In this document: positions 6,456 to 52,600 of the stretch, piece after piece
Position numbering within the stretch: position 1 is the first letter of the stretch
How the letters are laid out: every line of letters starts with the position of its first letter
DNA from: Methylobacter sp.
GTDB taxonomy: Bacteria > Pseudomonadota > Gammaproteobacteria > Methylococcales > Methylomonadaceae
NCBI GenBank assembly: GCA_004299305.1
Contig: SCPZ01000083.1
Location: 1 to 54,062 of the forward strand
Length of the DNA stretch: 54,062 bases
Direction of reading: 5' to 3'
The notes under the pieces: model-generated
Seen by the model: only the letters and a program-made list of their open reading frames with translations
Told to the model about the DNA's origin: nothing
Databases searched by the model: none
Translations under genes and position numbers: made by a program

Positions 6456-7600
6456 TGGCTGATGCTTTAGATGCCGTAAAAATGGATAAACTAAAAGCCA
6501 GGGCTAGCTATGTCGGCGCGGCGATTAACGTTCTCCAGACACTGATTAAAATCGGTTTCGGCATCCTTGGGCAGTCGGCGGCGTTAATTGCCGACGGTAT
6601 TCATTCGCTATCGGATTTGCTCAGCGATCTTTTGGTGATTATTGCGGTTAAATTAGGCAGTCGCGAGGCTGATCTTGACCATCCCTATGGTCATCGCCGT
6701 TTTGAAACCATTGCAACCGTTATTCTGGGAGCCAGCTTAATCGCGATCGGCGGCGCTATCGCCTGGTCGGTCATGGAGCGCATGGCGAATCCCGAGCATC
6801 TGCCGGTGCCCAACGTGTTGTCACTGGGTGTCGCGACGCTTTCAATCCTGATTAACGAATGGCTATACCAATATACTAAGCGTATTGCCAAAACCACCCG
6901 ATCCAAGTTGCTGCTGGCTAATGCCTGGCATCAGCGTAGCGATGCAATCTCGTCTCTGGTTGTTTTATTCGGCATAGGCGCGGTGATGCTGGGCTATCCG
7001 CTGGCCGATGCGGTTGCCGCTATTGTGGTTGCATTGATGGTGGCTAAAATCGGCTTGAATCTGGTGCTGGAGAGTATCAAGGAATTGGTCGATACCTCAT
7101 TGCCGCCCGAACTGGTCGCCGAGATCAGGGCAGCCATTCATGCTATTGACGGCGTTGAAGGCATCCATTTATTGCGCACCCGGCAAATGGGCGAGGATGC
7201 GCTGATTGATGCGCATATCGTTGTCGATCCCCGGATTACCGTTTCGGAAGGGCACATGATTGGCGATATAGTCAGGGATGATTTGATCAGGCGCTTTGAT
7301 GACGTGATGGATGTGCTGGTGCATGTCGATCCTGAAGATGACGAAGGTTTTTCGGGGCATTCCAGGCCGCTGTCTCGTGGTGATGTGCAGCATTTATTGG
7401 ATCGCTATCTGGTGGACTTTAAAGTGGCTATAGAAGATTTTAGAATCCATTACCTGGACGGCCAGATTGAAGTGGAAGTGATTTTGCCGTTTTCTATCAG
7501 CGAGTCGCCGCAACAGCTGGAGGCAATAAAAAAACAATGCAAACTGATGCGCGTGGAAGTTAAAAAAATCGATAATGTGTTTGTGTTTTTTAAAGTTTGA
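6455..7600 (+). CDS. Cation diffusion facilitator family metal transporter
   Basis: A 381-residue inner-membrane protein. After a short N-terminus come about six membrane helices with the CDF signature ALIADGIHSLSDLLSD (Asp47 and Asp54 region, transport site in TM2), HPYGHRRFETI, and HQRSDAISSL in TM5 (His159/Asp163). The cytosolic C-terminal domain follows (about residue 210 on), with HAIDGVEGIHLLRTRQMG and an extra extension of about 80 residues beyond the usual FieF-like length. It exports divalent metals such as Zn, Fe, Mn or Co in exchange for protons. It is translationally coupled (TAATG) to the sulfur-carrier gene; the link between metal export and sulfur transfer is unclear. Confidence 0.88.
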   Translation: MADALDAVKMDKLKARASYVGAAINVLQTLIKIGFGILGQSAALIADGIHSLSDLLSDLLVIIAVKLGSREADLDHPYGHRRFETIATVILGASLIAIGGAIAWSVMERMANPEHLPVPNVLSLGVATLSILINEWLYQYTKRIAKTTRSKLLLANAWHQRSDAISSLVVLFGIGAVMLGYPLADAVAAIVVALMVAKIGLNLVLESIKELVDTSLPPELVAEIRAAIHAIDGVEGIHLLRTRQMGEDALIDAHIVVDPRITVSEGHMIGDIVRDDLIRRFDDVMDVLVHVDPEDDEGFSGHSRPLSRGDVQHLLDRYLVDFKVAIEDFRIHYLDGQIEVEVILPFSISESPQQLEAIKKQCKLMRVEVKKIDNVFVFFKV

Positions 7601-7607
7601 AAAAATA

Positions 7608-7712
7608 GAACACAGATGATACTGATTAGACGAATTTACACGGATTGTTAAGAATCCAAAATAACTATTCTTTTATCAGTGACTATCCGTCAAATCCGTG
7701 TCATCCGTGTTC
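7608..7712. repeat. Imperfect inverted repeat (AACACRGATGA / TCATCCGTGTT)
   Basis: The left arm GAACACAGATGATACTGATT and the right arm ending GTCATCCGTGTTC are imperfect inverted copies of roughly 30-45 bases, with internal repeats of ACGGAT/ATCCGT. This kind of ACACGGATGA palindrome is a dispersed intergenic repeat in many bacteria. It fills most of the gap between the CDF gene and argJ. No T-tract. Confidence 0.6.
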
Positions 7713-7739
7713 GATTATGTAACTAATGAGGCTTAACTT

Positions 7740-8954
7740 ATGGCAGTAGGGCAGTGCAGTTTTCCGATCATGCATCCGGTACCGGGAATAACTTTGGGTA
7801 CAGCGAACGCAGGCATCAAGCAAACCGTCAGGGATGATATTTTGGTCGTGCAAATGGCCGAGCATTCAAGCTGCGCGGCGGTTTTCACCCAAAACGCCTT
7901 TTGTGCGGCGCCCGTGCATGTGGCTAAAGCCAACCTGGCGCATAATCCGCGCTGGTTGCTGATTAACTCAGGCAATGCCAATGCGGGTACCGGCGAACAG
8001 GGTATGCAGGATGCTTTAGCGACTTGCGCCGATCTTGCCGAAGTTGTTGATGGGCTTGCGACGCAGGTTCTGCCTTTTTCGACCGGTGTTATCGGTCAAC
8101 CGCTGCCGGTGGGCAAAATCAAAGCGGTCTTACGGGAAGCTGTAAGCAATCTGGATACAGACAACTGGGCCAAAGCGGCTCAGGCTATCATGACTACCGA
8201 TACCTTTGCCAAAGGCGTGTCCAAAGTCATCGAAATTGACGGTCAAACCATCACCATCAACGGCATATCCAAAGGCGCAGGCATGATCCAGCCCAATATG
8301 GCGACCATGCTCGGCTTTATGGCCACCGATGCGAAAATCGACCAAGCCCTGTTGCAGAACTGTTTGGCGCTGGCCGTTGAGCAATCGTTCAACCGCATCA
8401 CCGTGGACGGCGATACCTCGACTAATGACGCCTGCGTATTAATGGCGAGCGGTTGCTCAGCTGTTCCTGAAATCAAACAAGACAGCGAAAATTATAAGAT
8501 TTTTGCCGATGCGCTGATGACCGTTTGTAAACAACTGGCGGAAGCCATAATCAGGGACGGGGAGGGCGCAACCAAGTTGATGCGCATCGTGGTCGAGCAG
8601 GCCTTGACCGATGAGGAAGCGGTGCGAGTCGGCAAGACCATCGCCCATTCGCCGCTGGTGAAAACCGCTTTTTTCGCCAGTGATCCAAATTGGGGACGGA
8701 TACTGGCCGCAGTGGGGCGCGCCGGTGTCGAAGACATGGTGTTGGAAAACGTGCAGCTGTATCTGGATGATGTTTGCATCGTCAGGGACGGCGGCAGAGC
8801 CGACGACTACACCGAGGAAGCCGGGCAAAAGGTGATGAATCAGGAAGAAATCACGGTGACCGTCAAGCTGGGTCGAGGCTTGGCGGTACAGGAAGTATTA
8901 ACCTGCGATTTGTCTTATGAGTATGTGAAAATCAATGCGGAATATAGGACTTAG
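7740..8954 (+). CDS. argJ: Bifunctional ornithine acetyltransferase / N-acetylglutamate synthase
   Basis: 404 residues, the usual ArgJ length. It moves acetyl from N-acetylornithine to glutamate in the cyclic arginine pathway and can also use acetyl-CoA. The precursor self-cleaves at the conserved KGAGMIQPNMATMLGF: Thr189 of ATML becomes the nucleophile of the beta chain. Other marks are LLINSGNANAGTGEQG and DGDTSTNDACVLMASG, and SDPNWGRILAAVGRAG near the C-terminus. It is followed by a heptamer-repeat spacer and a Nudix gene on the same strand. Confidence 0.96.
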   Translation: MAVGQCSFPIMHPVPGITLGTANAGIKQTVRDDILVVQMAEHSSCAAVFTQNAFCAAPVHVAKANLAHNPRWLLINSGNANAGTGEQGMQDALATCADLAEVVDGLATQVLPFSTGVIGQPLPVGKIKAVLREAVSNLDTDNWAKAAQAIMTTDTFAKGVSKVIEIDGQTITINGISKGAGMIQPNMATMLGFMATDAKIDQALLQNCLALAVEQSFNRITVDGDTSTNDACVLMASGCSAVPEIKQDSENYKIFADALMTVCKQLAEAIIRDGEGATKLMRIVVEQALTDEEAVRVGKTIAHSPLVKTAFFASDPNWGRILAAVGRAGVEDMVLENVQLYLDDVCIVRDGGRADDYTEEAGQKVMNQEEITVTVKLGRGLAVQEVLTCDLSYEYVKINAEYRT

Positions 8955-8965
8955 GTACAAGGTGA

Positions 8966-9087
8966 AAGGTCCAAGGTCCAAGGTCCAAGGTCCAAGGTCC
9001 AAGGTTCAAGGTTCAAGGTCCAAGGTCCAAGGTCCAGGCAAGTATCCGCCTTTCACTTTGAACCTTGAACCTTGAACCTTGAACCTT
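8966..9087. repeat. Heptamer repeat array: ten AAGGTYC then four inverted GAACCTT
   Basis: From 8966 to 9035 there are ten unbroken 7-nt units: five AAGGTCC, two AAGGTTC, three AAGGTCC. After a 24-nt spacer, four GAACCTT units run from 9060 to 9087, the exact complement of AAGGTTC. The array can fold into a long hairpin filling the argJ/Nudix junction and ends 2 nt before the Nudix ATG. Related 7-nt-period arrays lie at 22069-22096 and 40055-40082. Likely a short-tandem-repeat element; effect on expression of the Nudix gene is possible but unproven. Confidence 0.9.
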
Positions 9088-9089
9088 AA

Positions 9090-10013
9090 ATGAACACACT
9101 CCAAGTCGCCGTAGGCGTAGTTAAAAACCCGGAAGGAAAAATCCTGATTTCCCTGCGCCATGCCGCTTTGCACCAGGGCGGCTTGTGGGAGTTCCCCGGC
9201 GGCAAGATTGAAGCATCGGAAACCGCAGAATTTGCGCTGGCCCGCGAACTCAAGGAAGAACTCAATGTAACCGTCACAGCGGCAACTCCGCTGATTACCG
9301 TCAAACACAAGTATCCAGACCGGCTCGTACAGCTAAATGTTTTTTTGGTCGAGCAGTTTTCGGGCGAAGTTAAAAGCTTGGAAGGCCAGCCGTTTAAATG
9401 GGTGGATTCGGACGAATTGGAGCGCTACACATTCCCCGCCGCCAACCAACCCATCATCACCGCCGCCCGACTGCCGCATTATTACGCGATTTTGGATGAC
9501 GCCGATGAAGCCTTGTTGCTGACCAATCTGCAAAAAATATTGAACCGGGGCGTCAAGCTGATTCAGGCCAGATTAAAAAAACTGCCGCCCGCTGCTGCGG
9601 CTGGATTTATCGAACAGGCTTACTCGCTATGCAAACAGCAACAGGCATTGCTGTTAATGAATTCCGCCGTTGATTGTCCAGTCGAAGCGGACGGCATCCA
9701 TTTGACCAGCCGTCACTTGATGGACTTGGTTGCGCGCCCTGAAAACATCAAGTGGCTGGCCGCATCATGTCATAACCTTGAGCAACTGCAACATGCGCAA
9801 AACATAGGCGTGGATTTTGTCGTGCTGGCCCCGGTGTTGGCAACGCAAACCCATCCGGGTGCCGAATCGCTGGGCTGGGAGCAATTCGCCGAACTGGTTG
9901 CCAATGTCAACCTGCCTGTTTATGCCCTAGGCGGTATGACCGAATCCAGTTTGACTGTTGCGCAGCAAAGCGGCGGCAGAGGAATAGCCGCGATCAGGGC
10001 GTTTTTGGATTAA
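9090..10013 (+). CDS. Nudix (MutT) hydrolase fused to a ThiE-like domain
   Basis: 307 residues. Residues 1-130 form a Nudix domain: GGLWEFPGGKIEASETAEFA followed by LARELKEELNV matches the GX5EX7REUXEEXGU box except for the terminal G, as in MutT, which removes 8-oxo-dGTP from the nucleotide pool. Residues about 140-307 resemble thiamine-phosphate synthase (NRGVKLIQARLK, then DGIHLTSRHLM, ASCHNLEQL, VLAPVLATQTHPG and YALGGM). This two-domain architecture is common in gammaproteobacteria, so the join is natural rather than a frameshift artefact. Whether the C-terminal domain is catalytic is not known. The start sits directly after the inverted heptamers, with no normal Shine-Dalgarno. Confidence 0.9.
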   Translation: MNTLQVAVGVVKNPEGKILISLRHAALHQGGLWEFPGGKIEASETAEFALARELKEELNVTVTAATPLITVKHKYPDRLVQLNVFLVEQFSGEVKSLEGQPFKWVDSDELERYTFPAANQPIITAARLPHYYAILDDADEALLLTNLQKILNRGVKLIQARLKKLPPAAAAGFIEQAYSLCKQQQALLLMNSAVDCPVEADGIHLTSRHLMDLVARPENIKWLAASCHNLEQLQHAQNIGVDFVVLAPVLATQTHPGAESLGWEQFAELVANVNLPVYALGGMTESSLTVAQQSGGRGIAAIRAFLD

Positions 10014-10021
10014 TTCGGGCT

Positions 10022-10819
10022 ATGCAGGTTTTTAAGTATCTCGAAAATATTAAAAATGGGAAGCCAATCAACTTTGATTGTTTTCGTGAGAAATTATCTT
10101 CGGAAGGATATGACGACCAAGCTATTTTGAAGATTTTTTCGACGCAAAAGATTTCCAAGTCGAGCCGTTATCAGGTCAGTATTATTGACCCAGAACGGTT
10201 TGCCCGGCTCCAGGCCGATTTTCCTGAGTATACGATAAGCAATAGAGTATCGGCGGCACAGGCCGGAGACAGTCATAAGCATCCGGTTAGCCAAGCGATG
10301 ATTATTCTCTGGCCGAGCCGACAAAGTCATCCGGTTGTTATCCTGAATGATGCGGGCGGGATAAAAGCGCCGGTCAAGTTGGGGGAGCGTTTGCTGATTA
10401 TTGAGAATCAGGAAAATTTTGTACAAAAAGACCGGACTTTAGCTTTTTTGCAATGCCAGTTTCCCGGTTTTAATGATCAAGCCTTGGATATTGCCTGGGG
10501 CTCCGGCAATGCGATTAGTAATCGCCTGAATAAAGCATTTTTCAATCACTATCAGCATGTCGATTGCCTGCTTGACCTGGATATGGGCGGGCTTACAACG
10601 TTTGCAAATATATGCGAACTAACCGTTCATCCCAGAATCAATTTTTTATTGCCGCCCTGTGCCGATGAGCAGTTAAAAAACTCAAAAATTAATTTACAAA
10701 ACGAACATTTGCCGGACTTGCGCAAATTTCATGAAAATCACCCGCTATTAAGGCCAGCTATTGAATTGATGGTCCGTCATAAAAAAATGCTGGAACAGGA
10801 AATATATTTACCGGATTAA
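10022..10819 (+). CDS. jetD: JetD/MksG-like TOPRIM nuclease of a Wadjet-type system
   Basis: 265 residues. In Wadjet/Mks systems JetD is the DNA-cleaving TOPRIM subunit that cuts small circular DNA extruded by the SMC partner. Here the TOPRIM-like core is visible: strand LLIIENQENF (Glu128, matching the VENxENF pattern of JetD) and later CLLDLDMGGLTT (Asp185-x-Asp187, metal ligands). The N-terminal about 110 residues would be the winged-helix/arm region. It is shorter than many type I JetD proteins. It lies 8 bases after the Nudix gene and 2 bases before the SMC gene. Identification rests on the TOPRIM residues plus context; system subtype not assigned. Confidence 0.75.
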   Translation: MQVFKYLENIKNGKPINFDCFREKLSSEGYDDQAILKIFSTQKISKSSRYQVSIIDPERFARLQADFPEYTISNRVSAAQAGDSHKHPVSQAMIILWPSRQSHPVVILNDAGGIKAPVKLGERLLIIENQENFVQKDRTLAFLQCQFPGFNDQALDIAWGSGNAISNRLNKAFFNHYQHVDCLLDLDMGGLTTFANICELTVHPRINFLLPPCADEQLKNSKINLQNEHLPDLRKFHENHPLLRPAIELMVRHKKMLEQEIYLPD

Positions 10820-10821
10820 TT

Positions 10822-13737
10822 ATGGAAAATTTAGAATTATTGAATCCCAAAATCGCCTATTCGGTGAAAAAGCTGATTGCGATTAACTCTATCAGCTATT
10901 GCTATACCGAGTTGCCGATCGATCGACATTGCGCCTTGTTCGGCCGCAACAATCTGGGCAAAACCTCGCTGTTGAATGCGTTGAAGCTGCATTTGTTTCC
11001 TGAAATCAGTTTTAATGACAGTAAGACTAAATTTGCGTTTAAATCGTCCAAGGGCGAGTTGTACTCCAGTGAAGACAGTTACAGTTATTATTTTCCCAGC
11101 GACAGCAGTTTCCTGGTTCTGGAAGCGGAAAATATCCACGGCCCTTTTTGCCTGATCCTGTTCAAATCGAACAGCAGTTTCGGTTATCAGCGGCTGGCAT
11201 TGCCTTGTGCTTACGACGAGATTCGCGCGCAGTTTTGGGATATTCATAATACGGAAGTCAACAACGGTCTGGGCAGTCCGGTGTCGGACTTGGGCATTCC
11301 GAAGATACATGCCTTGTATCAGCGCTATAAGGATGCCGGGGCGGTGATGCTGAAAACCAAAAAAGAAATCAAGGAAAAGCTGTTCAGCCACAACCCGATG
11401 CAGAAAGTAAAAGGCCGTTATTGTTTGGTGCCGTTAAAAGAAGGTGGGATGGAGCGTGAACTGAGCGCTTTTCGCCAGCTGATGAATTTTACTTTTGAAA
11501 TTGCCAAAACCGATACCAAAGGCCTGAGCGAGACCTTCGCCACTATTATTGAAAGCGGTAAGATCAATACCCAGGATAAGCTGCATCAGGATTTGCAGAC
11601 GATCCTCGACGAGTACAACGAGTTGCGCCGGACTCAGGATAAACTAAAAGCCATAGCGAATTATCGTGACGACTTTCAGCAGTTGAGCGCCCTGTATCAG
11701 GGCCGGAACGAACAGCAACAGCGTTTTTCCGCTACCTTTCAGGCTTATTTCAAATGCTTGGATAAGACCGAAAAGCAGATGCGTCGGCAAGTCGGACAAG
11801 TTGAGCCTGAAGTTAAACGCTTATTTGAAGCCCAGCAGCAGCTCGAGAAAAAATCGATAGAACAGCAAAATAAGGGCAGCGAGTACACGGGGCAACTGAA
11901 GGCTTTGCATAAAGACCTGGCTAAATTCAGGCTGCAAATCGAGCATTTCCAAAAGATTCAGCACCAATATTCCGAGGCTGCGATTGCTGAGCTCAGGAAT
12001 ATCTTGCAGGACAAGCGGGATGAACTGGATGAAAGAATTAGTCATCTTGAAGATAGTCGGAAAGCCAATGAAACCTTGGCTGCCAAAGTCGCGTTGAAAA
12101 ACAGTAATATCGCCGATCGGGATAAGAAAAAGCAGGCGCTGGAACACTACGATAAATTACTGACCAGCCGGATTGACGACCATAGCGCTACGGTGCTGAG
12201 AAATCTCAACCAGCATTTTGCCGAGGTTATCGTTGATGTCGATGATAGCCAAACAGCAACTATTCAGCGTTTTGCACACCTGTTCAGTATTGGGCCGACA
12301 GGTTTAAGCTTTCTCGGCGAGCCATTTAGCAAGGAGCCGATAAAATCATCGCAACAACTTAAGGAGCAGTTGCAACAGGAACTGGACAAGTTAGATAAAG
12401 CTATCCAACAGCTGGATCATGAGGTTATTGAGCTGAAAAAAATCGCTTCAGCCTCCGGCGAATACCAAAAGCAACAGTGCCAGGAAGCTAACAAGGAAAG
12501 GGAAAAAGTTCAGAACGAGTTGAAGGTAGTCAATGCTGTCGAAACCACCGAACAACAAAGACAGGTTAAAGAGGCCGAGATCGAAGACATAGAGAACGCA
12601 CAACGGCAACTTGTTAAACAGCTGGACGAAACTCAAGGTTTTCTGGAGCAAAACCGTAACGATCATGCGGCGGCTAAAGAGAACCTGGCGTTTTTGAGCC
12701 AGCAACTAAAGGATGCGGCTTATCTTTTGCAACGCCTGCAAAGCCTGAAACCCGACGACCTGAATGCAACGCTTGAAATCCAAGAGCTTGATGGCGTTTC
12801 ATTCAGCGATTTGAAAGAGCTGGAAGGCGACCAGGCCAAACTGAATCATCTAAAACAAAGCCTGGATGAAAAAATTAATGAATTTGTCCGCTGCGGCCAT
12901 TTTTCCGTACCCGTTGAAATAGCCTACAGCAGCTACAGTAACGAGCAGCAAAGCGTTATTTTGGATGCGCTAAACAATACGTTTGTCGCATTGCCCGATC
13001 AATTGGACACCTTGCAAAGCCGCATCATCGAACATAATAAAATGACCGGTGCCAAGATTAGCGAACTGACCGGCAATCGCAGTCATATCCGCGCTTTCAT
13101 CAACAAGGTTAATAAACAATTTGAGAACTACAGTATTTCCAACCTGAAGGACATACGGGTCGAAATTGAGCTGGACCATCGTTTCGAAGAGCTGGTTAAT
13201 GAGCTGGATCGGACTAACCTGAACACGACCGACATTCACGACGACGGCTTATATCAGCGGCTGAATCAATTCTGCGAGGATTTTTTTATCGGTGGGCGCG
13301 GTAACCGCATCCTGGAAATGAGCAAAATCATTACCAACGTCAAATACAGTTATAAAAAAGAACATCAGGACAAGCGCGAACAAAAAGACCAAAGCACCGG
13401 AACCAATGCGCTGATCAATTGCACGTTGTTGACTATTTTGCTCAGCGATTTGTTGGCGCAGGACAGCGAGCTGACCTTGCCGGTTATTTTTGACGAGTTT
13501 ACCGCGCTTGATGAATACAATCAGCGCACCGCGATTCAGGCGGCAACCAAACATGGCTTTGCGTTGTTTTGCGCTTCGCCAACGGTAACCGCTGAAGTGG
13601 TTGCCGTTGTCGATTACTATATTACGCTTGATGATTTCCATGCCAACACCATTTACGACGCCGGCGGCGAACGTGATGTGGTGTTCCATCATTTTTGGGA
13701 GCGGCTTTATGAAGTGACGGAGCCGCAAGCCTTATGA
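10822..13737 (+). CDS. jetC: JetC/MksB-like SMC ATPase (MukB-type) of a Wadjet system
   Basis: 971 residues. An SMC-like ATPase: Walker A FGRNNLGKTSLLNALKL at about 40-56, long coiled-coil arms from about 240 to 800 rich in Gln/Glu/Lys, a hinge-like non-coil part near 440-510, and Walker B VIFDEFTALDEYN at 888-900 (Asp891, Glu892). In Wadjet the dimer of such subunits extrudes DNA loops and senses small circles. At under 1,000 residues it is clearly smaller than MukB (about 1,480), as expected for JetC/MksB. Its stop overlaps the next start (ATGA). Confidence 0.88.
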   Translation: MENLELLNPKIAYSVKKLIAINSISYCYTELPIDRHCALFGRNNLGKTSLLNALKLHLFPEISFNDSKTKFAFKSSKGELYSSEDSYSYYFPSDSSFLVLEAENIHGPFCLILFKSNSSFGYQRLALPCAYDEIRAQFWDIHNTEVNNGLGSPVSDLGIPKIHALYQRYKDAGAVMLKTKKEIKEKLFSHNPMQKVKGRYCLVPLKEGGMERELSAFRQLMNFTFEIAKTDTKGLSETFATIIESGKINTQDKLHQDLQTILDEYNELRRTQDKLKAIANYRDDFQQLSALYQGRNEQQQRFSATFQAYFKCLDKTEKQMRRQVGQVEPEVKRLFEAQQQLEKKSIEQQNKGSEYTGQLKALHKDLAKFRLQIEHFQKIQHQYSEAAIAELRNILQDKRDELDERISHLEDSRKANETLAAKVALKNSNIADRDKKKQALEHYDKLLTSRIDDHSATVLRNLNQHFAEVIVDVDDSQTATIQRFAHLFSIGPTGLSFLGEPFSKEPIKSSQQLKEQLQQELDKLDKAIQQLDHEVIELKKIASASGEYQKQQCQEANKEREKVQNELKVVNAVETTEQQRQVKEAEIEDIENAQRQLVKQLDETQGFLEQNRNDHAAAKENLAFLSQQLKDAAYLLQRLQSLKPDDLNATLEIQELDGVSFSDLKELEGDQAKLNHLKQSLDEKINEFVRCGHFSVPVEIAYSSYSNEQQSVILDALNNTFVALPDQLDTLQSRIIEHNKMTGAKISELTGNRSHIRAFINKVNKQFENYSISNLKDIRVEIELDHRFEELVNELDRTNLNTTDIHDDGLYQRLNQFCEDFFIGGRGNRILEMSKIITNVKYSYKKEHQDKREQKDQSTGTNALINCTLLTILLSDLLAQDSELTLPVIFDEFTALDEYNQRTAIQAATKHGFALFCASPTVTAEVVAVVDYYITLDDFHANTIYDAGGERDVVFHHFWERLYEVTEPQAL

Positions 13738-15116
13738 ATGTCGCTTTAGACCGGACACTGATTCTGCTGATCGAACATAAGGATATGATGTTCCAGCTGA
13801 TTGATTACATGGACCAAAATCAACGCAAAGATTTACCCACCGAGGTGTTTTTCAATAGTATCCGCGCCAAGCTGGAAAATATAAACAGCAAGAAAGAAAC
13901 CGATCGGCTTAACGATGCTTTTGATTTGGGTAACCTGGTCAAGACGGGGATTGTCTCCGAGTTTAATAAATCGCGCGGTACGATTGCTTTTCAACCGGCG
14001 GTGCTGGATATTTTTCGTTTGTTTGACAAGGAGCGGGTGCGCGGCTTGCGCAGTGCGGACTTGGAAAATATCCGCGTACAGCTGGAAAATGTCTATAGGC
14101 AGCTTGAGGCTTTAAGTTTTGCCGATGACAATATCGCCTTTCTTGAGCAGCACGATCATCTGTTTGATTTATTGCGTAGGATTAACAGCCAGATCCAAAA
14201 CAATACCGATCATTTGCAGCATGAGGCCGACCGCTTGTCCCAGCGATTGGATCATGACCAGGCGCTATTGTCTTTGCATGAATCCCGGCAGCACCGGGAA
14301 ATTCTGGCGCAGGTGAAAAATATTTACGATCGGGAGATTATTCCTACTTTAGAGTTTCTTAACGCCAGGGAATACAGCAAAACCAAGGCGCCGCTGGCTG
14401 TGATTGATGATATTAGTCGGCTTTACGATATGCGCGGTTATGAAGACGACAGCTATTATATTGACCAATATAAACTGTCGATACTCAGTCATTACAAAGC
14501 GCTGGAAAAGGTTAAACAAGCCCTGCAGCGCTATCTGCATCAGGAGCGGCATCATAGGCTGACCTATAATGCGATTGAGCAGGCTTATTTGGATTTACAG
14601 GCCTTGGCGCAAAGCACTTTTACCGAAAGCCTGAAAGAAAAATACATATTTAAATCACTGGATGCAAAAACGCTTTATTTTTATGGGCTTAAAACGCATT
14701 CTGCCGGACAGGAAGCGCGCATCGAATGGCATGACCGTAATCATCTGATTTACTTTAACGAATACCTGATAAACCAGAACGCGCGTAAACGCAGCGACAG
14801 CTCGGCCCAGATCAAGACCTTTGATAATAAGCAGCAGAGCGATCGGCACAATGCCGTCAAGCGGCGCATCGAACAGTTGGTCGAGGGCTTCGATATTAAA
14901 CCGCCGGTCGATGATTTATATGTGGTTATGCATAATTTGCTGGCGGAACAATTGCAACAGGATTATCAGCTGAATTATTTACTGTACGGCGTAAGCTGTT
15001 TTAAACAACGGTACGGCAAAAAATTTAAGGTGCAGGTGAGCTTTACCCGGCCTCAGCAGCGTATTCGTCATCAAAATCAAGTGCTGGAATATAACAAACG
15101 CGAATTTATTTTATGA
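13734..15116 (+). CDS. jetA: JetA/MksF-like kleisin of a Wadjet system
   Basis: 460 residues. Mostly helical, starting with a winged-helix-like domain (LILLIEHKDMMFQLIDYM, then VKTGIVSEFNKSRGTIAFQP). A coiled middle part follows (YRQLEALSFADDNIAF, LQHEADRLSQRLDHDQALL) and then a C-terminal globular domain. This is the MukF-like kleisin arrangement that bridges SMC heads. Assignment is mainly from its position between the SMC and MukE-like genes, both joined by ATGA overlaps. I see no catalytic motif and would not expect one. Confidence 0.75.
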   Translation: MNVALDRTLILLIEHKDMMFQLIDYMDQNQRKDLPTEVFFNSIRAKLENINSKKETDRLNDAFDLGNLVKTGIVSEFNKSRGTIAFQPAVLDIFRLFDKERVRGLRSADLENIRVQLENVYRQLEALSFADDNIAFLEQHDHLFDLLRRINSQIQNNTDHLQHEADRLSQRLDHDQALLSLHESRQHREILAQVKNIYDREIIPTLEFLNAREYSKTKAPLAVIDDISRLYDMRGYEDDSYYIDQYKLSILSHYKALEKVKQALQRYLHQERHHRLTYNAIEQAYLDLQALAQSTFTESLKEKYIFKSLDAKTLYFYGLKTHSAGQEARIEWHDRNHLIYFNEYLINQNARKRSDSSAQIKTFDNKQQSDRHNAVKRRIEQLVEGFDIKPPVDDLYVVMHNLLAEQLQQDYQLNYLLYGVSCFKQRYGKKFKVQVSFTRPQQRIRHQNQVLEYNKREFIL

Positions 15117-15652
15117 TTAGTAACGAACTCAGCCAAACCATTTACAACGATCTGGTTAAAGGCAAAACTATTAACAAACACAGCTATAGCCTTAAAACCA
15201 ACGAGTTGGAAGAGAACCCGCTGTATAACGAAATATTTATCAACTTCGATGAATATAAGCAGCTGTATCAGCGCATCAATTTTGACTTGGCGCATAAAAA
15301 CAGCAGCTTTTTTTTCATCCGCGAAATGAGCGGCGGGGATGCGAACGAGGTGACCATTAAGATTCAAGCCTTACTGATTATTATCGGACGTATCGTTACT
15401 GAAAAAGGCTATCTGTTTGACGTGCTGACCGATCATCGTGTCGGTATCGGCTTGGAAGACCTTTCGGCGGCTATGTCGGAAGAACGCTATATCGATATTC
15501 TGCATACTTGTAAATTATGTGTGTCGCGCGGCATTGAAGAAGAAATCAATAATCATCTCATTGCCCGAAGCATTATGTTTAAAAACAGCCGTGGGCATTA
15601 TGTGTTGAGCGATGCCGGGATTGCTTTTTTTAACGAACTAACTGAGTTTTAA
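15113..15652 (+). CDS. jetB: JetB/MksE-like KITE subunit of a Wadjet system
   Basis: 179 residues. A small winged-helix (KITE-type) protein: the segment NSSFFFIREMSGGDANEVTIKIQALLI, here given only as a region at about 63-88, followed by IGRIVTEKGYLFDVLTD is typical of MukE/JetB proteins that bind the kleisin. The late stretch NSRGHYVLSDAGIAFFNEL reads like the last beta-wing. ATG overlaps the kleisin stop (ATGA). It is the last gene of the four-gene unit; a hairpin covers its stop codon. Confidence 0.75.
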   Translation: MISNELSQTIYNDLVKGKTINKHSYSLKTNELEENPLYNEIFINFDEYKQLYQRINFDLAHKNSSFFFIREMSGGDANEVTIKIQALLIIIGRIVTEKGYLFDVLTDHRVGIGLEDLSAAMSEERYIDILHTCKLCVSRGIEEEINNHLIARSIMFKNSRGHYVLSDAGIAFFNELTEF

Positions 15653-15677
15653 CCTGTTTTTTTAAGTTACAGGTTAA
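15649..15677 (+). terminator. Possible terminator hairpin after the Wadjet operon
   Basis: TTAACCTGT at 15649-15657 pairs with ACAGGTTAA at 15669-15677. The stem overlaps the jetB stop. The loop is T-rich, but only a short AT stretch follows, so intrinsic termination would be weak. Confidence 0.4.
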
Positions 15678-15813
15678 ATTTAGAAGAACCGGTTATCAGT
15701 GGAATCGCGAAGGCTTTCGGCTGTTATGTCAAATTTTTCAAATAAAGATAACCGATTTGGCGCAGCAAGGTGCGCCGAGTATCACTATTTCCAAATAATA
15801 AGGAGACATTTCT

Positions 15814-16803
15814 TTGACAGATACTATCGATAACAATATGGTCATGAAGTGCGTGGCCTATCAAAACGGCGTCAGTATCGGCGACGTGACCATTGAAGAT
15901 ATTAGCGAGGTCTTAAAGCAGGAGCACACTTTTGTCTGGCTGGGTTTACGCGAAGCGAACAGTGAGTTGCTCGCCAAAATCCAGCAGGAATTCGGGTTGC
16001 ATGACTTGGCTGTCGAGGATGCCTGTGCGGCGCATCAGCGTCCGAAAATCGAGGAATACGGAGAATCGCTGTTCATGGTGTTGCATACTGCCCATCTTGC
16101 GGAAGATCGGGTCGAGTTTGGCGAGACCCATGTTTTTCTCGGGCCGCGTTTCTTGGTGACGGTCAGGCACGGCGCTTCACGCAGTCACAACAAGGTCAGG
16201 GAGCGTTGCGAAGCTATGCCGCAACAATTGGCCAAAGGGCCGGGGTTTGCGTTGTATTCGATCATGGATTTTATCGTCGATAACTATGTGCCGGTTATCG
16301 ACGGATTGCAGGAACGGTTCGATGTGTTGGAGTTGGCAATTTTTCAATACCGGCCTAGTCGGCAGACCATAGAAGGCCTTTATGAGCTGAAGCGGGAGTT
16401 GTTGCAGCTGGAAGGCGCCATTAACCCGGTCATTGATATTTGCAACGAACTGATGCGCTTCCATAGTGGAATGATTCCCAAAGAGGTGCAGGTGTATTTT
16501 CGCGATATTGCCGATCATATCAAGCGTATTGATCAGGCGATACACGGTATGCGCGAGATGCTGGTTGCGGCGATGCAGGTGCATCTGACCTTTGAAACGG
16601 TGCGGCAGAATGAAGTCGTCAAACGCTTGGCCGGATGGGGAGCGATTCTGGCGATACCTACTATGGTATTTAGCTGGTATGGAATGAATTTCAGGCACAT
16701 GCCTGAGCTGGATTGGGAGTACAGCTATCCGGTGGTGGTCGGAGGCGTGATGTTGGGCAGTCTGCTGTTGTATTTGCGCTTGAAAAAGTCCGGGTGGCTG
16801 TGA
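15814..16803 (+). CDS. corA: CorA-family magnesium/cobalt transporter
   Basis: 329 residues. A cytosolic N-terminal funnel domain with KVRERC and long helices, then two C-terminal membrane helices. The pore signature YGMNFRHMPE (Gly290-Met291-Asn292) lies between them, and the chain ends in a short basic tail after SLLLYLRLKKSGWL. It moves Mg2+ (or Co2+/Ni2+) inward. The start is a TTG at 15814, chosen because AAGGAG sits 8 nt before it and it supplies the normal N-terminus; the first ATG is 24 bases downstream. It is monocistronic. Confidence 0.93.
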   Translation: MTDTIDNNMVMKCVAYQNGVSIGDVTIEDISEVLKQEHTFVWLGLREANSELLAKIQQEFGLHDLAVEDACAAHQRPKIEEYGESLFMVLHTAHLAEDRVEFGETHVFLGPRFLVTVRHGASRSHNKVRERCEAMPQQLAKGPGFALYSIMDFIVDNYVPVIDGLQERFDVLELAIFQYRPSRQTIEGLYELKRELLQLEGAINPVIDICNELMRFHSGMIPKEVQVYFRDIADHIKRIDQAIHGMREMLVAAMQVHLTFETVRQNEVVKRLAGWGAILAIPTMVFSWYGMNFRHMPELDWEYSYPVVVGGVMLGSLLLYLRLKKSGWL

Positions 16804-16833
16804 TAAATCCTGCGAGGCGGTTGTTTCCGGTAG

Positions 16834-17394
16834 CTAATTTTGGGCTTTCAGTGCTGACCGCCATGCTTGTAGCTTTTGTTCATAGGAAAGAGATGCATGT
16901 GCCGGGCTGGTGGACGGTAGGCGTATGTAGCAAATAGGAACGGCGCTGACGGTAGGCAAGACATGTTGGCGGTACGCCGATTCTGCTTTTGCCCCATTGA
17001 AGAAAACCGTATGGATATTTGTATGCGTAAGAAAGAAGCTCTGAAAGTCATTTACAGTGATGGAGTTAGCATCAATTTTGGCATCCAGACTACCGACTCG
17101 CGTGCATGACTGCAATACATCCCAGAGTGCGATGTGGGCTGCTTTCAGTTCGTGTAGCCGGGTCTCATAAGAGCAGTCAGGATCAAAGCCGAGTAATTCA
17201 CCCATAATTTTCCAGAAGACATTATGGCGATTTGCATAGTATTGACTCGCCGTCAAAGATTTCTGTCCCGGCATGCTGCCTAAAATCAATATTTTTGCAT
17301 TCCAATCGGCGATAGGTTCGAAGCAGAAAAGTGTTTTTGTCATGAGGCTCGGCGTGGTGGGTGGGGCGGCTTGAGCGACTTTGTTAGATTGCAT
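16834..17394 (-). CDS. Uracil/hypoxanthine-DNA glycosylase family protein
   Basis: 186 residues as read from the first ATG. The core ILILGSMPGQKSLTASQYYA with HNVFWKIMGELLGF is the motif of the hypoxanthine (deoxyinosine)-DNA glycosylase branch of the uracil-DNA glycosylase superfamily. LWDVLQSCTRVGSLDAKI and IRLPSTSPAHA complete the active site. Such enzymes excise deaminated bases. An internal ATG at 17343 would give a more typical start just before the domain (TKTLFCFEPIADW); neither start has a clear ribosome site. It is convergent with corA, with only 30 bases between stops. Confidence 0.85.
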   Translation of the reverse strand: MQSNKVAQAAPPTTPSLMTKTLFCFEPIADWNAKILILGSMPGQKSLTASQYYANRHNVFWKIMGELLGFDPDCSYETRLHELKAAHIALWDVLQSCTRVGSLDAKIDANSITVNDFQSFFLTHTNIHTVFFNGAKAESAYRQHVLPTVSAVPICYIRLPSTSPAHASLSYEQKLQAWRSALKAQN

Positions 17395-17449
17395 TGTTTG
17401 TTTGGCATTGTATTGTCGTGGAATTATCTTTGAGGCTAGTCAAAATATT

Positions 17450-17479
17450 TTGCTCTTATTATATTTTTAGTGCTATTAT
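17450..17479 (+). promoter_or_regulatory. Probable promoter of the cold-shock gene (extended -10)
   Basis: TGCTATTAT at 17471-17479 is an extended -10 element (TGn plus TATTAT), with TTGCTC 18 nt upstream as a weak -35. It leaves an about 90-nt leader containing a small CGCCGA/TTGGCG hairpin (about 17530-17550) followed by a T-run. Cold-shock leaders often regulate translation through structure. Confidence 0.45.
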
Positions 17480-17574
17480 CTGTCCAAGTTAACAGTTTGA
17501 GCCAGCTTTAATTGTAGAGTTGGGATTTGTAACGCCGATATAAAGTTGGCGAATTTTTTAAGTAAGAGTGTGAT

Positions 17575-30690: not shown

Positions 30691-33369
30691 ATGGCTAAAC
30701 AACCTACACAACAAAACGATATTCTCACCGCAGGACTTGGTATTAACAGCATTGATGGCTTGGGTGGTGTCGATACGTTGATCATTGATTACTCTTCATT
30801 GACCCGTAATATCAGTGAAGATGGAAATAGTTTTACTGACTATCGCTTTAATAGAATCTCTTATTCGAACATCGAGAAGTGGAGCATTAGCGGTGGTTCT
30901 GGTGACGATGCTTTCTCCGGTGGAGGTTTAAACGATACTCTGTTGGGTGGCGTCGGCATGGATTTTTTAACAGGCTATGGTGGTGCTGACAGTATTGATG
31001 GTGGTGTCGGCATTGATACGTGGATAGATAACTTTTCTGCCCTGACCAGTGCTGTTACGGTTACGTTGGCAACTCTCACTGGAGCTAATACCAGTGCCAA
31101 GGTTACTCTGGGCAAGCTGTCTGTTCCTACGGTAAAAAATGTCGAGGCGCTTAATTTGCGTACCGGGAGCGGCAACGATAGTATTTCTGTCGGCACGCTG
31201 GCTTATGACGATGATATACGCACCGGTAAAGGTACAGATACTATTAATGTCGGTACGGGTGGCTCTGATTATGTTGATGGTGGCGACGGCGTGGATCTGG
31301 GGATATTTGACTGGTCTGCCTCGACCACAAATATTACCGTCAACCCTACGTATGACGACTACTCGGATGAGCAAGGTCGTTATGTTGATTTTTATCACGT
31401 TGAGCGCTTCAATTTAACAGGAGGTTTTGGCAACGACTATTTGGCGGGTGATGTTTATAACGATACGTTGATTGGCGGTGCCGGTCGGGATCTTTTATAT
31501 GGTTACCGCGGGGCGGATAATATCGATGGCGGTGATGGCATTGATGTGTGGCAGGCTGATTACAGTTCTTCGACTGGGGCTATTAAAATTACGCTTACGG
31601 CAACACCGGATGTCAATGAAGTTGTGGGTGGAATAACAGGTGCATCGCTTAGAAATATTGAACGTTTGGATCTTTCTACTGGCTCAGGAAGTGATGTTAT
31701 TTCGGCAGGAACGCTGCCCTATGATGACAGTATTTACACCAACAGCGGCAACGATACCATCGATGTAGGTACCGGTGGCTCAGATTACGTTAACGGCGGT
31801 GATGGAACCGATACCGGCATCTTCAACTGGTCGGCTTCGACTACCGATATTGGCGTTGATCCGACTTACGATGATTATTCTGATAGTGAAGGTCGTTACG
31901 TCGATTTTTATAAAGTAGAGCGTTTCAATATTACCGGCGGCAGCGGTGATGATCATCTGGCCGGTGATGTTTACAGCGATACGCTGCTTGGCGGTGCCGG
32001 ACGCGATACCCTGGACGGCGCGACCGGCAGCGATTCCATTAACGGCGGTGAAGGTGTAGATTTATGGGTAGCGGATTATAGCGCCAGCACTACCGATATT
32101 AACGTCGAGTTGAGCGCGACAGCGACGACTAATGAAATACTCGGAGGCATTAAAGATGCCAAGGTTTATAGTATCGAGCGCTTGGATTTTTCTTCCGGTT
32201 CCGGTGATGATGCGCTATCTGCAGGTGTGTTGGCTAATGATGACAGCATTTGGAGTAATGGCGGCAATGATACGATAAATTCGGGGGCTGGCGGTTCGGA
32301 TTATGTTAATGGCGGCGATGGCTTGGATGTGGGAGTGTTCGATTGGTCGGCTTCGACTACCGATATTGGTGTTGATCCAACTTACGACGATTATTCCGAT
32401 AGCGAAGGCCGTTACGTCGATTTTGATAACGTAGAGCGTTTCAATATTACCGGTGGCAGCGGCAGCGATTATTTGGCTGGTGATGCGTGGAACGATACGC
32501 TGACGGGTGGTGCCAGTAACGATACTCTGGAGAGTGGTAGTTTCCGTGCTGATGTCGAGTCGTTTAATACGGACGTTATTGATGGTGGCGCGGGTGTTGA
32601 TTATTGGATTGCAGATTTTTCTGAAAGCACAGAGCCGGTCAATATCCTGCTTTCCGATCAGCCGAATGTTAATGGCATTTTGGGCGGTATTAGTGATGGT
32701 GTTACCAATGGTGCGGTCAAAAATGTTGAGCATATGGAATTTATCGCAGGCTCTGGCGATGATGTTATTTCCAGTGGCACATTCGCCTATGATGATTATA
32801 TTGAAGGCGGCGACGGCGATGATGCGATTAATGTTGGTACTGGCGGCAGTGATTATGCCGATGGTGGCGTCGGTATTGATATTGGTAGCTTCGACTGGTC
32901 AGTCTCTACCTCTAGCATTACAGTCGATCCCAGTTATGACGATTATGCTGACTTGCAGGGGCGTTACGTTGATTTCGACAACATCGAGCGTTTCGATTTG
33001 ACGGGGGGGATGGGCAATGATTATCTGACTGGCGATGATTATTTAGATACTTTAGTCGGTGGTGCCGGTGACGATGAGTTGGATGCTTTTGGCGATAATG
33101 ATGTATTAACAGGCGGTGTCGGTGCTGATATGTTCGATGTTAGGGCAAGCAGTGGTAATGATGTCATTACTGATTTTACAGCAGGTCAAGGCTTGGGGGA
33201 TTTGGTTTACTTTGTTGATAATCCTTTTGATACAATGAGCTTTGCGGTTATTCGTCAGCAGATGAGGCAAGATGGCGCGGACACGGTGTTGTCGTTATCC
33301 GATGCCGATTCTATTCGTTTTGTTGGTGTTAACGTTAATGTTTTCGCGGCTGATGATTTTTTATGGTGA
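30691..33369 (+). CDS. RTX-like calcium-binding protein with four long internal repeats
   Basis: 892 residues, acidic and Gly/Asp/Asn-rich. Short RTX nonapeptides (GGSGDDAFSGGG, GGAGRDTLDG, GGAGDDELDAFGDNDVLTGG) bind calcium. A longer module containing GGSDYVNGGDG, WSASTTDIGVDPTYDDYSD and GRYVDF starts near residues 190, 362, 534 and 718, a period of about 172 to 184. The C-terminus (VGADMFDVRASSGNDVITDF, then SIRFVGVNVNVFAADDFLW) has the hydrophobic-aspartate ending typical of uncleaved type I secretion signals. No signal peptide and no enzyme domain. Probably a secreted surface or matrix protein; no ABC/HlyD exporter genes are nearby. AGGAG 7 nt from ATG. Confidence 0.85.
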   Translation: MAKQPTQQNDILTAGLGINSIDGLGGVDTLIIDYSSLTRNISEDGNSFTDYRFNRISYSNIEKWSISGGSGDDAFSGGGLNDTLLGGVGMDFLTGYGGADSIDGGVGIDTWIDNFSALTSAVTVTLATLTGANTSAKVTLGKLSVPTVKNVEALNLRTGSGNDSISVGTLAYDDDIRTGKGTDTINVGTGGSDYVDGGDGVDLGIFDWSASTTNITVNPTYDDYSDEQGRYVDFYHVERFNLTGGFGNDYLAGDVYNDTLIGGAGRDLLYGYRGADNIDGGDGIDVWQADYSSSTGAIKITLTATPDVNEVVGGITGASLRNIERLDLSTGSGSDVISAGTLPYDDSIYTNSGNDTIDVGTGGSDYVNGGDGTDTGIFNWSASTTDIGVDPTYDDYSDSEGRYVDFYKVERFNITGGSGDDHLAGDVYSDTLLGGAGRDTLDGATGSDSINGGEGVDLWVADYSASTTDINVELSATATTNEILGGIKDAKVYSIERLDFSSGSGDDALSAGVLANDDSIWSNGGNDTINSGAGGSDYVNGGDGLDVGVFDWSASTTDIGVDPTYDDYSDSEGRYVDFDNVERFNITGGSGSDYLAGDAWNDTLTGGASNDTLESGSFRADVESFNTDVIDGGAGVDYWIADFSESTEPVNILLSDQPNVNGILGGISDGVTNGAVKNVEHMEFIAGSGDDVISSGTFAYDDYIEGGDGDDAINVGTGGSDYADGGVGIDIGSFDWSVSTSSITVDPSYDDYADLQGRYVDFDNIERFDLTGGMGNDYLTGDDYLDTLVGGAGDDELDAFGDNDVLTGGVGADMFDVRASSGNDVITDFTAGQGLGDLVYFVDNPFDTMSFAVIRQQMRQDGADTVLSLSDADSIRFVGVNVNVFAADDFLW

Positions 33370-49639: not shown

Positions 49640-52600
49640 TTACAATTTATCTTCTCCACCCGCCAGCTTCAACAAATCAAACACCACCTTAGCAAACCCA
49701 GCCGCTTTGGCTGGGTCCGATAATAACTGCATCATTTGGTTCTGGTGGGCCTCACTACTATCGATAATCGCATCATCAACGGCTTTGGTAAAATCGCCCA
49801 ACATCGCCTGTTCCGTGGTGTTATTAGCGATTTGATTCATCACTAAGGCATTTTCACTGATTTTATCTCTGATGGTGTAGGCGTAATTTACCAAGTCATT
49901 TTCTGTTAAATGATCGGTAATAAACAGTTCATTTAAACGGCTGATGATTTGCGAAATAAATTCCTCATGTTTATCTTTTGGCTTTGCCGTACCCAAGCCT
50001 TCACCGGGTTCAAGTTTATAGTCGGCTGAGTCTTCTTTTAGCTTCAAATCCTGCTGACGAATAACTGACAAGCGATAATGACTTAGAACCACGGCGCTCA
50101 AGTCTATTCCCTCTTCTTCCATAAATGTTTCACGTAACATGGGTCTTAGATTACGGGCATAGAGACTGAGCTTTTCCAGTGCTTTATCATCATAATCAAC
50201 AATCTGTGACATAAATTCATAAAAGCGCACGAACGTACCCAAATCTTTTTTAAAGATTTCCAAGGCGTCCTTTTCTTTTTTGCACTCCTTAAAACTATTT
50301 TCTGCATTGGTTATCAACACGGCATCGGCCGTTTTCTTGGTACGCTCAAACATGTCCCTGGCTTGTTTATAAGCATCTATGGCTGACTTATACCGTTTTT
50401 GCCAACGCTCCACGCCAGGTTTGCAAATATTAGCGATGGCCGCATTGCTTTTACTTTTTACAAAAAACGCCTCACAAAATTGTTCTACTTCTTGCCAGGT
50501 AAATATACCGGCGGCACGGAGCTTATTGAATAGATCAAAGATTAAATCAGGGTCCGACACATCGGCTAATTCGGCCGTTTGATAATAGGGTTGGAAGGCT
50601 TTTAGTATCTCTTCCGGCTCATTAAAAAAATCCAACACAAACGTACCCATTTCCGCTTTACCGGGATAAGTACGATTCAGCCGAGATAGGGTTTGCACAC
50701 ACTCCACACCACCGAGTTTTTTATCCACATACATGGCGCAGAGCTTGGGCTGGTCAAATCCGGTCTGGAACTTGTTGGCAACAATCATCACTTGGTAATC
50801 GTCCGAATCAAAGGCTTTGCGTAGTTCTCGGCCTTTGAGGTTCGGATTCAGGGTGCTTTCGGTAAACTTCTCGCCCACTAATCCCTCAGCGTTGGGGTCT
50901 TTATCGCTAAACTCAACCTCGCCCGAAAAGGCCACCATAGCATGAATATTTTGGTAGCCCTTGGCCTTAATGTATTGATCAAATCCCTGCTTGTAGCGCA
51001 CCGCTTCTTTTCGGGAACTGGTAACCACCATCGCCTTGGCTTGGCCGCCTAACAAGCCCATCACATTGGCTTTAAAATGCTCAACAATGACCTGCACCTT
51101 TTGCGAAATGTTGTAATCGTGCAGACGTACCCATTGGTTAAGCTTTACCTTGGCTTTTTTGCTTTCAACTTCCTGGTCAGCGCCTTGGATTTTTAATGCC
51201 AAGTTATAAGCGACTTTGTAATTGGTGTAGTTTTTTAATACATCCAGGATAAAGCCTTCTTCAATGGCTTGGCGCATACTGTACACATGGTAGGCTTCTG
51301 GGAGATTAGTTTTTGACGGCGCTTCATTCGGGTTGGGCAGGCGACCGGATAGTTCAAGGGTTTTTGTTTTTGGTGTAGCGGTAAAGGCCAAATAACTGAC
51401 ATTTGTTGAAGCCCGACGCGAGGCGATGGCAGCATCCAGAATATCTTCGGCAGTCACCTCGTCGGTATCATTGCCTTGAGCGTCAATCATCAACACTTCT
51501 TTTAATTGACGTGCCGTGGAGCCGGTCTGTGACGAATGGGCCTCATCAGCAATGATGGCGTAGCGCCGTTCTTTTAAGCTGACACTGTTCTCAATGGCTC
51601 TTAAAACATAGGGGAAGGTTTGAATAGTGACAATGATAATCGGCTGGGCGTTATTCAGGGCGGCGGCCAGCTTTTCGGATTTGGACCCGTCACCTTCTTT
51701 ATTATTGATGCGACCGACTACGCCATCCACATGCTCAAACTGGTAGATGGTATCTTGCAGTTGGTCGTCCAATACCGTCCGGTCGGTCACAATAATCACC
51801 GAATCAAATTGTTTGCGGCCATTTTGATCGTAAATTGACGATAACTGATGCGCAACCCAGGCAATAGAGTTGGATTTACCCGACCCCGCACTGTGTTGAA
51901 TTAGGTATTTATGACCGGGGCCTTCAGTACGCGCAGACTCTACCAGTTTTGTCACCACATCCCATTGATGATAACGCGGAAAGATCAGGGCTTCTTTTTT
52001 GTACTTGCGGCCCTCCCAATCCTCTTTTTCTTCAATCTGTAAATGGACAAAGCGGGCAAGAATATTGAGCAGGTTATCCGGCAGCAACACCTCGTTCCAT
52101 AAATAATCAGTCGCATAGCGGTTAATATCTTCCGGCACATCGTTACCGGCAGCGCCGTCTTTGGTGCCTTTATTAAACGGCAAAAAGAAGGTGTCATTAC
52201 CTTCCAAGCGGGTAGCCATATAAACTTCATACTGGCTCACGGCAAAATGCACCAGCGCGCCGCGTTTAAACGTTAACAGCGGTTCCGGCTTTTTGGTAAC
52301 AGGATCTATGGAATGACGGGTGGTTTTATATTGTTTAATCGCATTGTGTACGGCCTGCTTGAATTCCGATTTTAACTCTAACGTTGCCACCGGCAAGCCA
52401 TTCACAAACAACACCAAATCAATGCGCCACGCTTTAGCTTTTGCACCTGTTTCAGCCAAGTGCGCTTCGCTTGCCCAGGGGCTATACACCAATTCCGGTA
52501 CCACCCGGCAACGGTTTTTTTGGTAACGCGTCAATGTCTCCGGGTTTAAATCATGCTCCGGTTTAAACTGGCATAAACTAAAGCGGGTGCCACGGTCACG

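Follow-up and report, generated by a model that had tools for sequence, protein, structure and literature searches.

What kind of DNA-handling machine is encoded when a motor of the structural maintenance of chromosomes (SMC) type is preceded, in the same operon, by a compact nuclease? This question is raised by a contig of Methylobacter sp. (SCPZ01000083.1, assembly GCA_004299305.1, genome of 4.49 Mb), whose full 54,062 nucleotides were analysed and are called the window here. Four intact open reading frames, named G, B, F and E, occupy positions 10022-15652 of its forward strand, in keeping with the original prediction of a complete four-gene Mks/Wadjet-type SMC operon. We think it probable that the operon represents a divergent, nuclease-first lineage of MksBEFG/Wadjet-like DNA-restriction systems, which would restrict plasmids by extruding and cutting them. 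Its kinship, as judged from the sequences, is to Mks and, more weakly, to JetC and JetD. The genes are as follows.

10022-10819, forward strand: G, a compact TOPRIM nuclease (MksG/JetD-like) of 265 residues, with the predicted catalytic set E128, D185, D187, E258 and E260
10822-13737, forward strand: B, an SMC-type ATPase (MksB/JetC-like) of 971 residues, with Walker A from residue 41, the signature at Q857-S858 and Walker B at D891-E892
13734-15116, forward strand: F, a kleisin-like subunit (MksF-like) of 460 residues, a name based on its place in the operon, its length and a profile match of moderate strength
15113-15652, forward strand: E, a KITE subunit (MksE) of 179 residues, above the cut-off of the Pfam MksE model PF21980

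The ATGA junctions ascribed to the downstream genes are present, B/F and F/E each sharing 4 bases, and G stops 2 bases short of B. The resulting order G-B-F-E is a rotation of the usual kleisin-KITE-SMC-nuclease order. G does lead the operon and is as short as had been claimed, but neither feature is peculiar to this operon, because both recur in 22 other loci. Among the 25 distinct loci that we examined with profiles of the four proteins (window included), the order G-B-F-E was found in 23, and all four genes were full length in 20. One gene is shortened at a contig edge in L038 (E, 101 residues) and L090 (G, 237 residues), and in L012 and L091 G and B are seen before the genes run out at or near the contig end. 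Counted from the first start codon, the nuclease has 260-283 residues in 23 of the 25 loci, with 329 in L038 and 237 in L090. The ratio of nonsynonymous to synonymous substitution rates (dN/dS) was 0.06-0.16 in 26 of 28 gene pairs, the other 2 being saturated; dS exceeded 1 in 23 of the 28, and the ratios are therefore rough. The shared order and these ratios indicate that the operon is not a product of chance, and the nuclease-first order is a trait of a clade rather than a quirk of one genome.

The SMC subunit B carries the predicted Walker motifs, with GRNNLGKT starting at residue 41 and the acidic pair D891-E892. It scored above the Pfam cut-off for AAA_15, and it matched the PADLOC models JetC1 (1.1e-4, partial) and JetC3 (9.1e-4). 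With NCBIfam, the 926-position Mks model gave 34.9 bits against a cut-off of 1900, and the best match was an archaeal SMC-related model (39.6 against 300); a sequence search of solved structures gave no match for B. Profile comparison was more telling: the B profile scored 100% over 859 columns against six Pseudomonas-type MksB proteins, 97% against JetC and 84% against MukB, compared with 26% for SbcC, 4.7% for RecN and 3.9% for type II JetC. We built trees of the SMC heads from 19 of the 25 loci (L009, L011, L012, L090, L091 and L092 were left out). All 19 G-first SMCs fell on one side of a branch, supported by 97/97 with all rows and by 97/96 once five distant and two type II rows had been removed, and the sister group consisted of the six Pseudomonas-type MksB rows (joint grouping 100/97 and 100/100). 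A branch supported by 97/89 set RecN, SbcC and SMC apart from the rest, and the root was placed there. Mapping gene position on the second tree, from which two JetC rows without JetD were omitted, required two changes. The tree program flagged long branches, and the deep joins are less sure than the G-first clade itself. In these trees B is closer to MksB than to JetC, MukB, SMC or Rad50, so that the grouping with RecN/Rad50-type ATPases, named beforehand as an outcome that would overturn the assignment, did not occur; a repair ATPase of that type is ruled out by the profiles and the trees together. Lamassu and other SMC-like defence ATPases were rejected as well, with weak matches (LmuB at E 0.27 or worse) and an operon without a further gene. 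B has 971 residues, JetC1 has 1131-1226 and the product of a separate SMC-like gene of this genome (L097, identified by eye) has 1213. Judged by length alone, B would have a shorter arm than a typical SMC; PMC4255302 describes such an arm as an Mks trait.

Since the sister group of the SMC includes true Pseudomonas-type MksBEF, the operon might instead encode a condensin that organises the chromosome as P. aeruginosa MksBEF does, the TOPRIM protein resolving or trimming DNA and plasmids not being destroyed. We regard this as quite improbable. G was present in all 16 non-fragment loci found with the kleisin profile and was lacking in one fragment (G114), and its sequence is under constraint. 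The spread is patchy: of 201 genomes in the order, 10 were positive for the kleisin profile, the own genome among them. This patchiness and the separate SMC-like gene of the genome mean that the operon is no housekeeping component.

The same kleisin profile, own genome again counted, found 7 of 398 genomes in a phylum sample, all from the same class. With the nuclease profile, 6 of 369 genomes of the class sample were positive, again with the own genome, and two of them were weak (G750 and G679); G750 holds a Pseudomonas-type locus. Another survey gave 7 of 41 genomes, own included, two of the seven being of the Pseudomonas type. Relatives of the operon are thus scattered patchily through other gamma-proteobacteria. 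The SMC was found in 2 of 72,556 plasmid records, of 320 and 599 kb, and in none of 50,697 phage records at E 1e-10.

Some loci have features of their own. In L009 (1846-4758), the SMC gene is in two pieces with an in-frame stop, either as a pseudogene or through an assembly error. In L034, from a plasmid of Photobacterium damselae, the SMC and kleisin genes are separated by two small genes (7195-7969), one of which is DUF5406. Genome G350 carries two different G-first operons (L036 and L037), one of which adjoins a Gabija GajB gene.

The nuclease G contains Glu128, Asp185 and Asp187 at the predicted positions. Across 19 aligned nucleases, window included, E128, N129, F133, D185, E258, Q259 and E260 are invariant, and at least 90% share D187; the C-terminal E258-Q-E260, on which the original prediction was silent, is thus identical in 19 of 19. 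In the alignment with JetD, E128, D185, E258 and E260 fall on its EN, DxD and EQE motifs, so the E, DxD and ExE residues typical of JetD/MksG are all found in G. MksG of C. glutamicum binds metal through E236 and D279, and E349/E351 form a second conserved pair (PMC10123090). By motif order, the four residues of G can be equated with E236, D279, E349 and E351. G had no match in Pfam or NCBIfam; its PADLOC match to JetD1 (4.6e-5) was confined to residues 182-263, and a sequence search of solved structures gave only weak, unrelated-looking matches (best E 0.089). A failure to match TOPRIM/JetD folds would have spoken against the assignment; at the level of profiles, G matched five compact MksG proteins at 97% and JetD at 82%, with unrelated controls at 1.5% or less.

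Where the nuclease has become shorter can be read from the spacing of its motifs. From the EN glutamate to EQE, G has 130 residues, the 19 nucleases have 130-136 and five JetD proteins of type I have 117-151, whereas the catalytic glutamate stands at residue 123-138 in the 19 (128 in G) compared with 221-288 in the five. These five were the type I JetD sequences with both motifs by pattern search, which two type II sequences failed, and their residue numbers are possibly somewhat high as start codons were unrefined. Because the spacing resembles that of JetD while the glutamate comes much earlier, the reduction of G appears to be N-terminal, with the TOPRIM half kept. JetD consists of an N-terminal CAP domain and TOPRIM, and the CAP domains presumably block the cleft in one structure, according to PMC10586767. 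With about half of the N-terminal part of JetD, G would have to differ from JetD in docking or self-inhibition; the long N-terminal part of a full-length JetD is absent from its 265 residues, which have no Pfam match. The JetD of the control locus L079 scored above the Pfam cut-off for JetD_C and below that of DUF3322.

The KITE subunit E could be assigned to a family directly: it matched PF21980 with 56.1 bits against a cut-off of 27 (60.2 bits for its counterpart in L035), and its profile scored 97% against MksE, 58% against MukE and 19% against JetB. The NCBIfam MksE model gave 16.6 against a cut-off of 400. An MksE-type KITE, as expected of MksBEF(G), is therefore present. For F, the profile scored 88% over 399 columns against six Pseudomonas-type MksF proteins and 62% against two of them. 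PADLOC gave only Csm2 at E 0.17. F is kleisin-like by its position, its length and the moderate match to the Mks kleisin. Like F, the Pseudomonas-type kleisins are unlinked to JetA and MukF (0.2 and 0.1%).

How does the operon compare with the known systems? The closest counterparts are Pseudomonas-type MksFEB loci with a compact TOPRIM gene (L088, L089, L117, L118 and L120) and one without a nuclease (L119). They share an SMC of 917-943 residues that forms the sister group in the tree, a kleisin of 412-426 residues, an MksE-type KITE and, in five of the six loci, a nuclease of 277-296 residues with EN and EQE motifs; in those five, however, the order is kleisin-KITE-SMC-nuclease. L119 scored above the NCBIfam cut-off with each of the three Mks models, whereas the window proteins scored below the equivalog cut-offs for the three Mks subunits, with no kleisin match; the tested subunits of L088, L089, L117 and L120 were also below. 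Wadjet type I (JetABCD), like C. glutamicum MksBEFG, has the same four components with catalytic positions that line up. It differs in its order A-B-C-D (6 of 8 loci, L083 and L085 showing no JetD in the stretch), in a JetC of 1131-1226 residues, in a JetD of 375-439 residues in five with plausible ends, and in a JetA to which F shows no profile similarity. The type I profiles were built from the same loci as this order count, and the L079 JetD was confirmed by PADLOC. Wadjet type II (L086 and L087) shares an SMC and a JetD-type nuclease (L087 confirmed by PADLOC), but its JetC has 1377-1380 residues and scarcely matches the window SMC (3.9%, as given above). The likeness to type III consists of weak PADLOC matches, that of B to JetC3 and that of the L035 nuclease to JetD3 (1.5e-4). 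A JetC3 model of 1473 positions found nothing in 100 genomes or in 14 controls and so says nothing on the absence of type III; the second JetC3 model has 1068 positions, and size is therefore no bar to type III. MukBEF of E. coli resembles the operon in its SMC and KITE profiles (84 and 58%) but has no nuclease in its operon, a MukB of 1486 residues and a kleisin without a match.

The profile checks proposed beforehand thus gave a mixed answer. JetD1 and JetC1 were matched weakly and in part, and MksE above its cut-off; the JetA and JetB models of any type gave no match with the window proteins at E up to 1 in PADLOC, and the NCBIfam Mks cut-offs were not reached. As controls, the L079 and L087 nucleases matched JetD models at 3e-70 and 2e-135. 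A divergent subtype had been predicted, and this description is supported: B, G and E, and F moderately, match the Mks set by profile, while the formal Wadjet models are barely matched.

L119 (4457-9564) is a nuclease-free Pseudomonas-type MksBEF nested among nuclease-bearing compact Mks systems: no nuclease appears in the 13 kb read, and it groups with the nuclease-bearing L120 (95/91 and 96/91). PMC10586767 offers as likely that MksBEF arose when the nuclease was lost. The placement of L119 fits such a loss, by which a cutting system would have become a chromosome condensin, with one nuclease-free locus being thin evidence. The names of NCBIfam NF040857 and NF040859, seen on L088, L089, L117, L119 and L120, look swapped, because 'MksB' (412 positions) matches kleisin-sized proteins and 'MksF' (926 positions) matches SMC proteins.

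From its composition, in which SMC, kleisin, KITE and TOPRIM nuclease occur together as in Wadjet, and from its residues, the complex is expected to operate in the manner of Wadjet. In JetABCD, the motor reels in a circle and stalls, and a bent segment is cut by a TOPRIM dimer (PMC12287153 and PMC13040014); MksG of C. glutamicum contacts the complex through MksF (PMC7083940). By analogy with the known systems, from which we infer assembly, extrusion, stalling, cutting and the plasmid target, B would form an ATP-driven SMC motor with the kleisin F and the KITE E, as their families suggest. The motor would load on DNA and extrude it; a small circle would be reeled in whole, upon which the motor would stall and the bent DNA might be cut by a TOPRIM dimer of G, using the metal-binding E128 and D185/D187 together with the C-terminal E258/E260. 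On a large chromosome, the stalled state would rarely be reached. The size cut-off of Wadjet is reported at about 50-100 kb (PMC12287153), and both plasmids carrying the SMC are larger, in agreement with a plasmid-restricting function.

The motor and nuclease might alternatively sense another state of DNA, that of phage genomes or replication forks for example, and act as an anti-phage system by cutting it. Genes of anti-phage type lie near other G-first loci: Cas3f near L034, Gabija GajB near L036, a GmrSD-type gene near L039 and a type I R gene near L044. WYL regulators, which are common with defence systems, occur at 3 of the 25 loci (L035, L040 and L091) and at 2 of the 6 Pseudomonas-type loci, among the genes tested. 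Defence neighbours of this sort at G-first loci also speak for the plasmid-restriction reading. An anti-phage role is nevertheless unlikely in our judgement, as the characterised relatives of the same composition act on circular plasmids (PMC10123090, PMC10586767 and PMC12287153).

Several points weigh against the restriction of plasmids by a Wadjet-like lineage as the explanation that we prefer. F has no family assignment in Pfam or NCBIfam and scored 0.3 and 0.5% against JetA and MukF. The match of G to JetD dropped to 65% under other hhalign settings, with two compact MksG proteins at 95.5%. By the formal Wadjet definition, the JetC and JetD model matches are weak, and JetA and JetB matches, the A-B-C-D order and a full-length JetD are absent. 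A rule on plasmid size cannot be drawn from just two large plasmids. The defence neighbours come from chosen genes at 11 of the 25 loci, with no background rate, and the chosen genes beside L035, L049 and L092 gave no defence match.

The surroundings of the operon contain the following features, the last three of which lie in same-genus relatives.

9090-10013, forward strand: Nudix-ThiE fusion gene, a neighbour outside the system
15814-16803, forward strand: CorA-type transporter, a neighbour outside the system that sits elsewhere in relatives
10012-15686, forward strand: segment between the left and right ends of DNA homology to same-genus genomes
L104, 3209-4537, opposite to ThiE: FRG-domain gene (Pfam) after Nudix-ThiE
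L112, 4037-6118, opposite to ThiE: SIR2-TPR gene (Pfam) after Nudix-ThiE
L106, 3526-3897, opposite to ThiE: HepT gene (Pfam) after Nudix-ThiE

The Nudix-ThiE gene (NCBIfam PRK08999, 380.5 bits against a cut-off of 245) lies on the same strand as G, with 8 bases between its end and the ATG of G, exactly as described, and transcription shared with nucleotide-pool sanitation had been proposed on this ground. A functional and transcriptional coupling would also agree with the lack of a promoter-like site on the forward strand of 8900-10022, in a scan with 14 hits against 10.6 expected, not above chance. Yet neither Nudix-ThiE nor CorA is found in the examined stretches of the other 24 loci, which covered 62 to 9000 bases upstream of G per locus (L090: 62 only). 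The upstream genes vary, and the gap ranges from about 12 bases behind a cNMP-binding/rhodanese gene (L092) to more than 1800 (L043); tight spacing therefore also occurs with unrelated genes. We thus consider coupling as a part of the system highly improbable, whereas read-through from Nudix-ThiE is possible in the window genome alone.

The 3' side of ThiE was read in five same-genus genomes, out of 18 others with a ThiE match. DNA homology to these five extends over Nudix-ThiE and an argJ-like gene (by eye) as far as 10007-10011, so that the conserved left flank ends at the ThiE stop codon. On the right, five corA loci were compared, and homology begins at 15687-15690 for four of them and at 15775 for the fifth. 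The next conserved gene after ThiE in the five relatives is a moaA-like gene (by eye), and between the two there is nothing of note in L103 and L105 and the genes listed above in the others, an arrangement that speaks against the proposed coupling. The 3' side of ThiE looks like a gene-exchange site for defence-type genes, a candidate hotspot reaching up to the moaA-like gene, and since this side is variable across the five relatives, the 8-base gap looks like a local accident. An empty site could not be demonstrated in relatives because corA lies elsewhere there: in G019 a distance of 2.2 Mb separates it from thiE, and the remaining genomes compared have the two genes on different contigs. 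L107 of G019 contains two corA copies (8954-9943 and 15646-16665) at a distance of about 6.7 kb, whereas in the window a single copy adjoins the operon.

No mobility gene was recognised beside the operon, in line with the earlier claim; its neighbours are ThiE, CorA and a uracil-DNA-glycosylase-type gene (Pfam for these nearest ones) and further genes viewed by eye. An integrase adjoins the system in L038 only, among the neighbours tested with Pfam. Transposon borders were rejected, as 9800-17500 contains no inverted repeat of at least 14 bases. Farther along the window, an R-like protein of type I restriction (HSDR_N, SWI2_SNF2) on the reverse strand at 49640-53662 stands beside HepT-like and nucleotidyltransferase genes, possibly a second defence or toxin-antitoxin cluster, and 30691-33369 on the forward strand encodes an 892-residue protein with RTX calcium-binding repeats.

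No nuclease-first Mks operon or compact MksG was found in the accessible parts of the open literature searched; the founding Mks/Wadjet papers lay outside its scope and possibly describe the order or the lineage already. Defence annotation probably misses the lineage, because the PADLOC matches are barely there and all four proteins of both plasmid copies are labelled 'hypothetical protein'. The short G is a natural experiment for finding out on which part of JetD docking and self-inhibition depend. With a nuclease-free Pseudomonas-type MksBEF placed among compact-nuclease systems, the nuclease-loss proposal (PMC10586767) can be tested directly. Rather tentatively, we propose a wider picture that may well prove wrong in part: a separate plasmid-cutting SMC lineage with a rotated operon and a minimal nuclease, a Pseudomonas MksBEF descended from a compact-nuclease system that lost its cutter, and a long N-terminal part of JetD that is dispensable for SMC-triggered cutting. 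The close relatives of G in named records come from metagenome-assembled Methylobacter, Methylovulum and other Methylococcales, besides one uncultured proteobacterium, and because these named records are Methylococcales, the host is probably a methanotroph. As a speculation, such operons may be one reason for the poor plasmid uptake of some methanotrophs.

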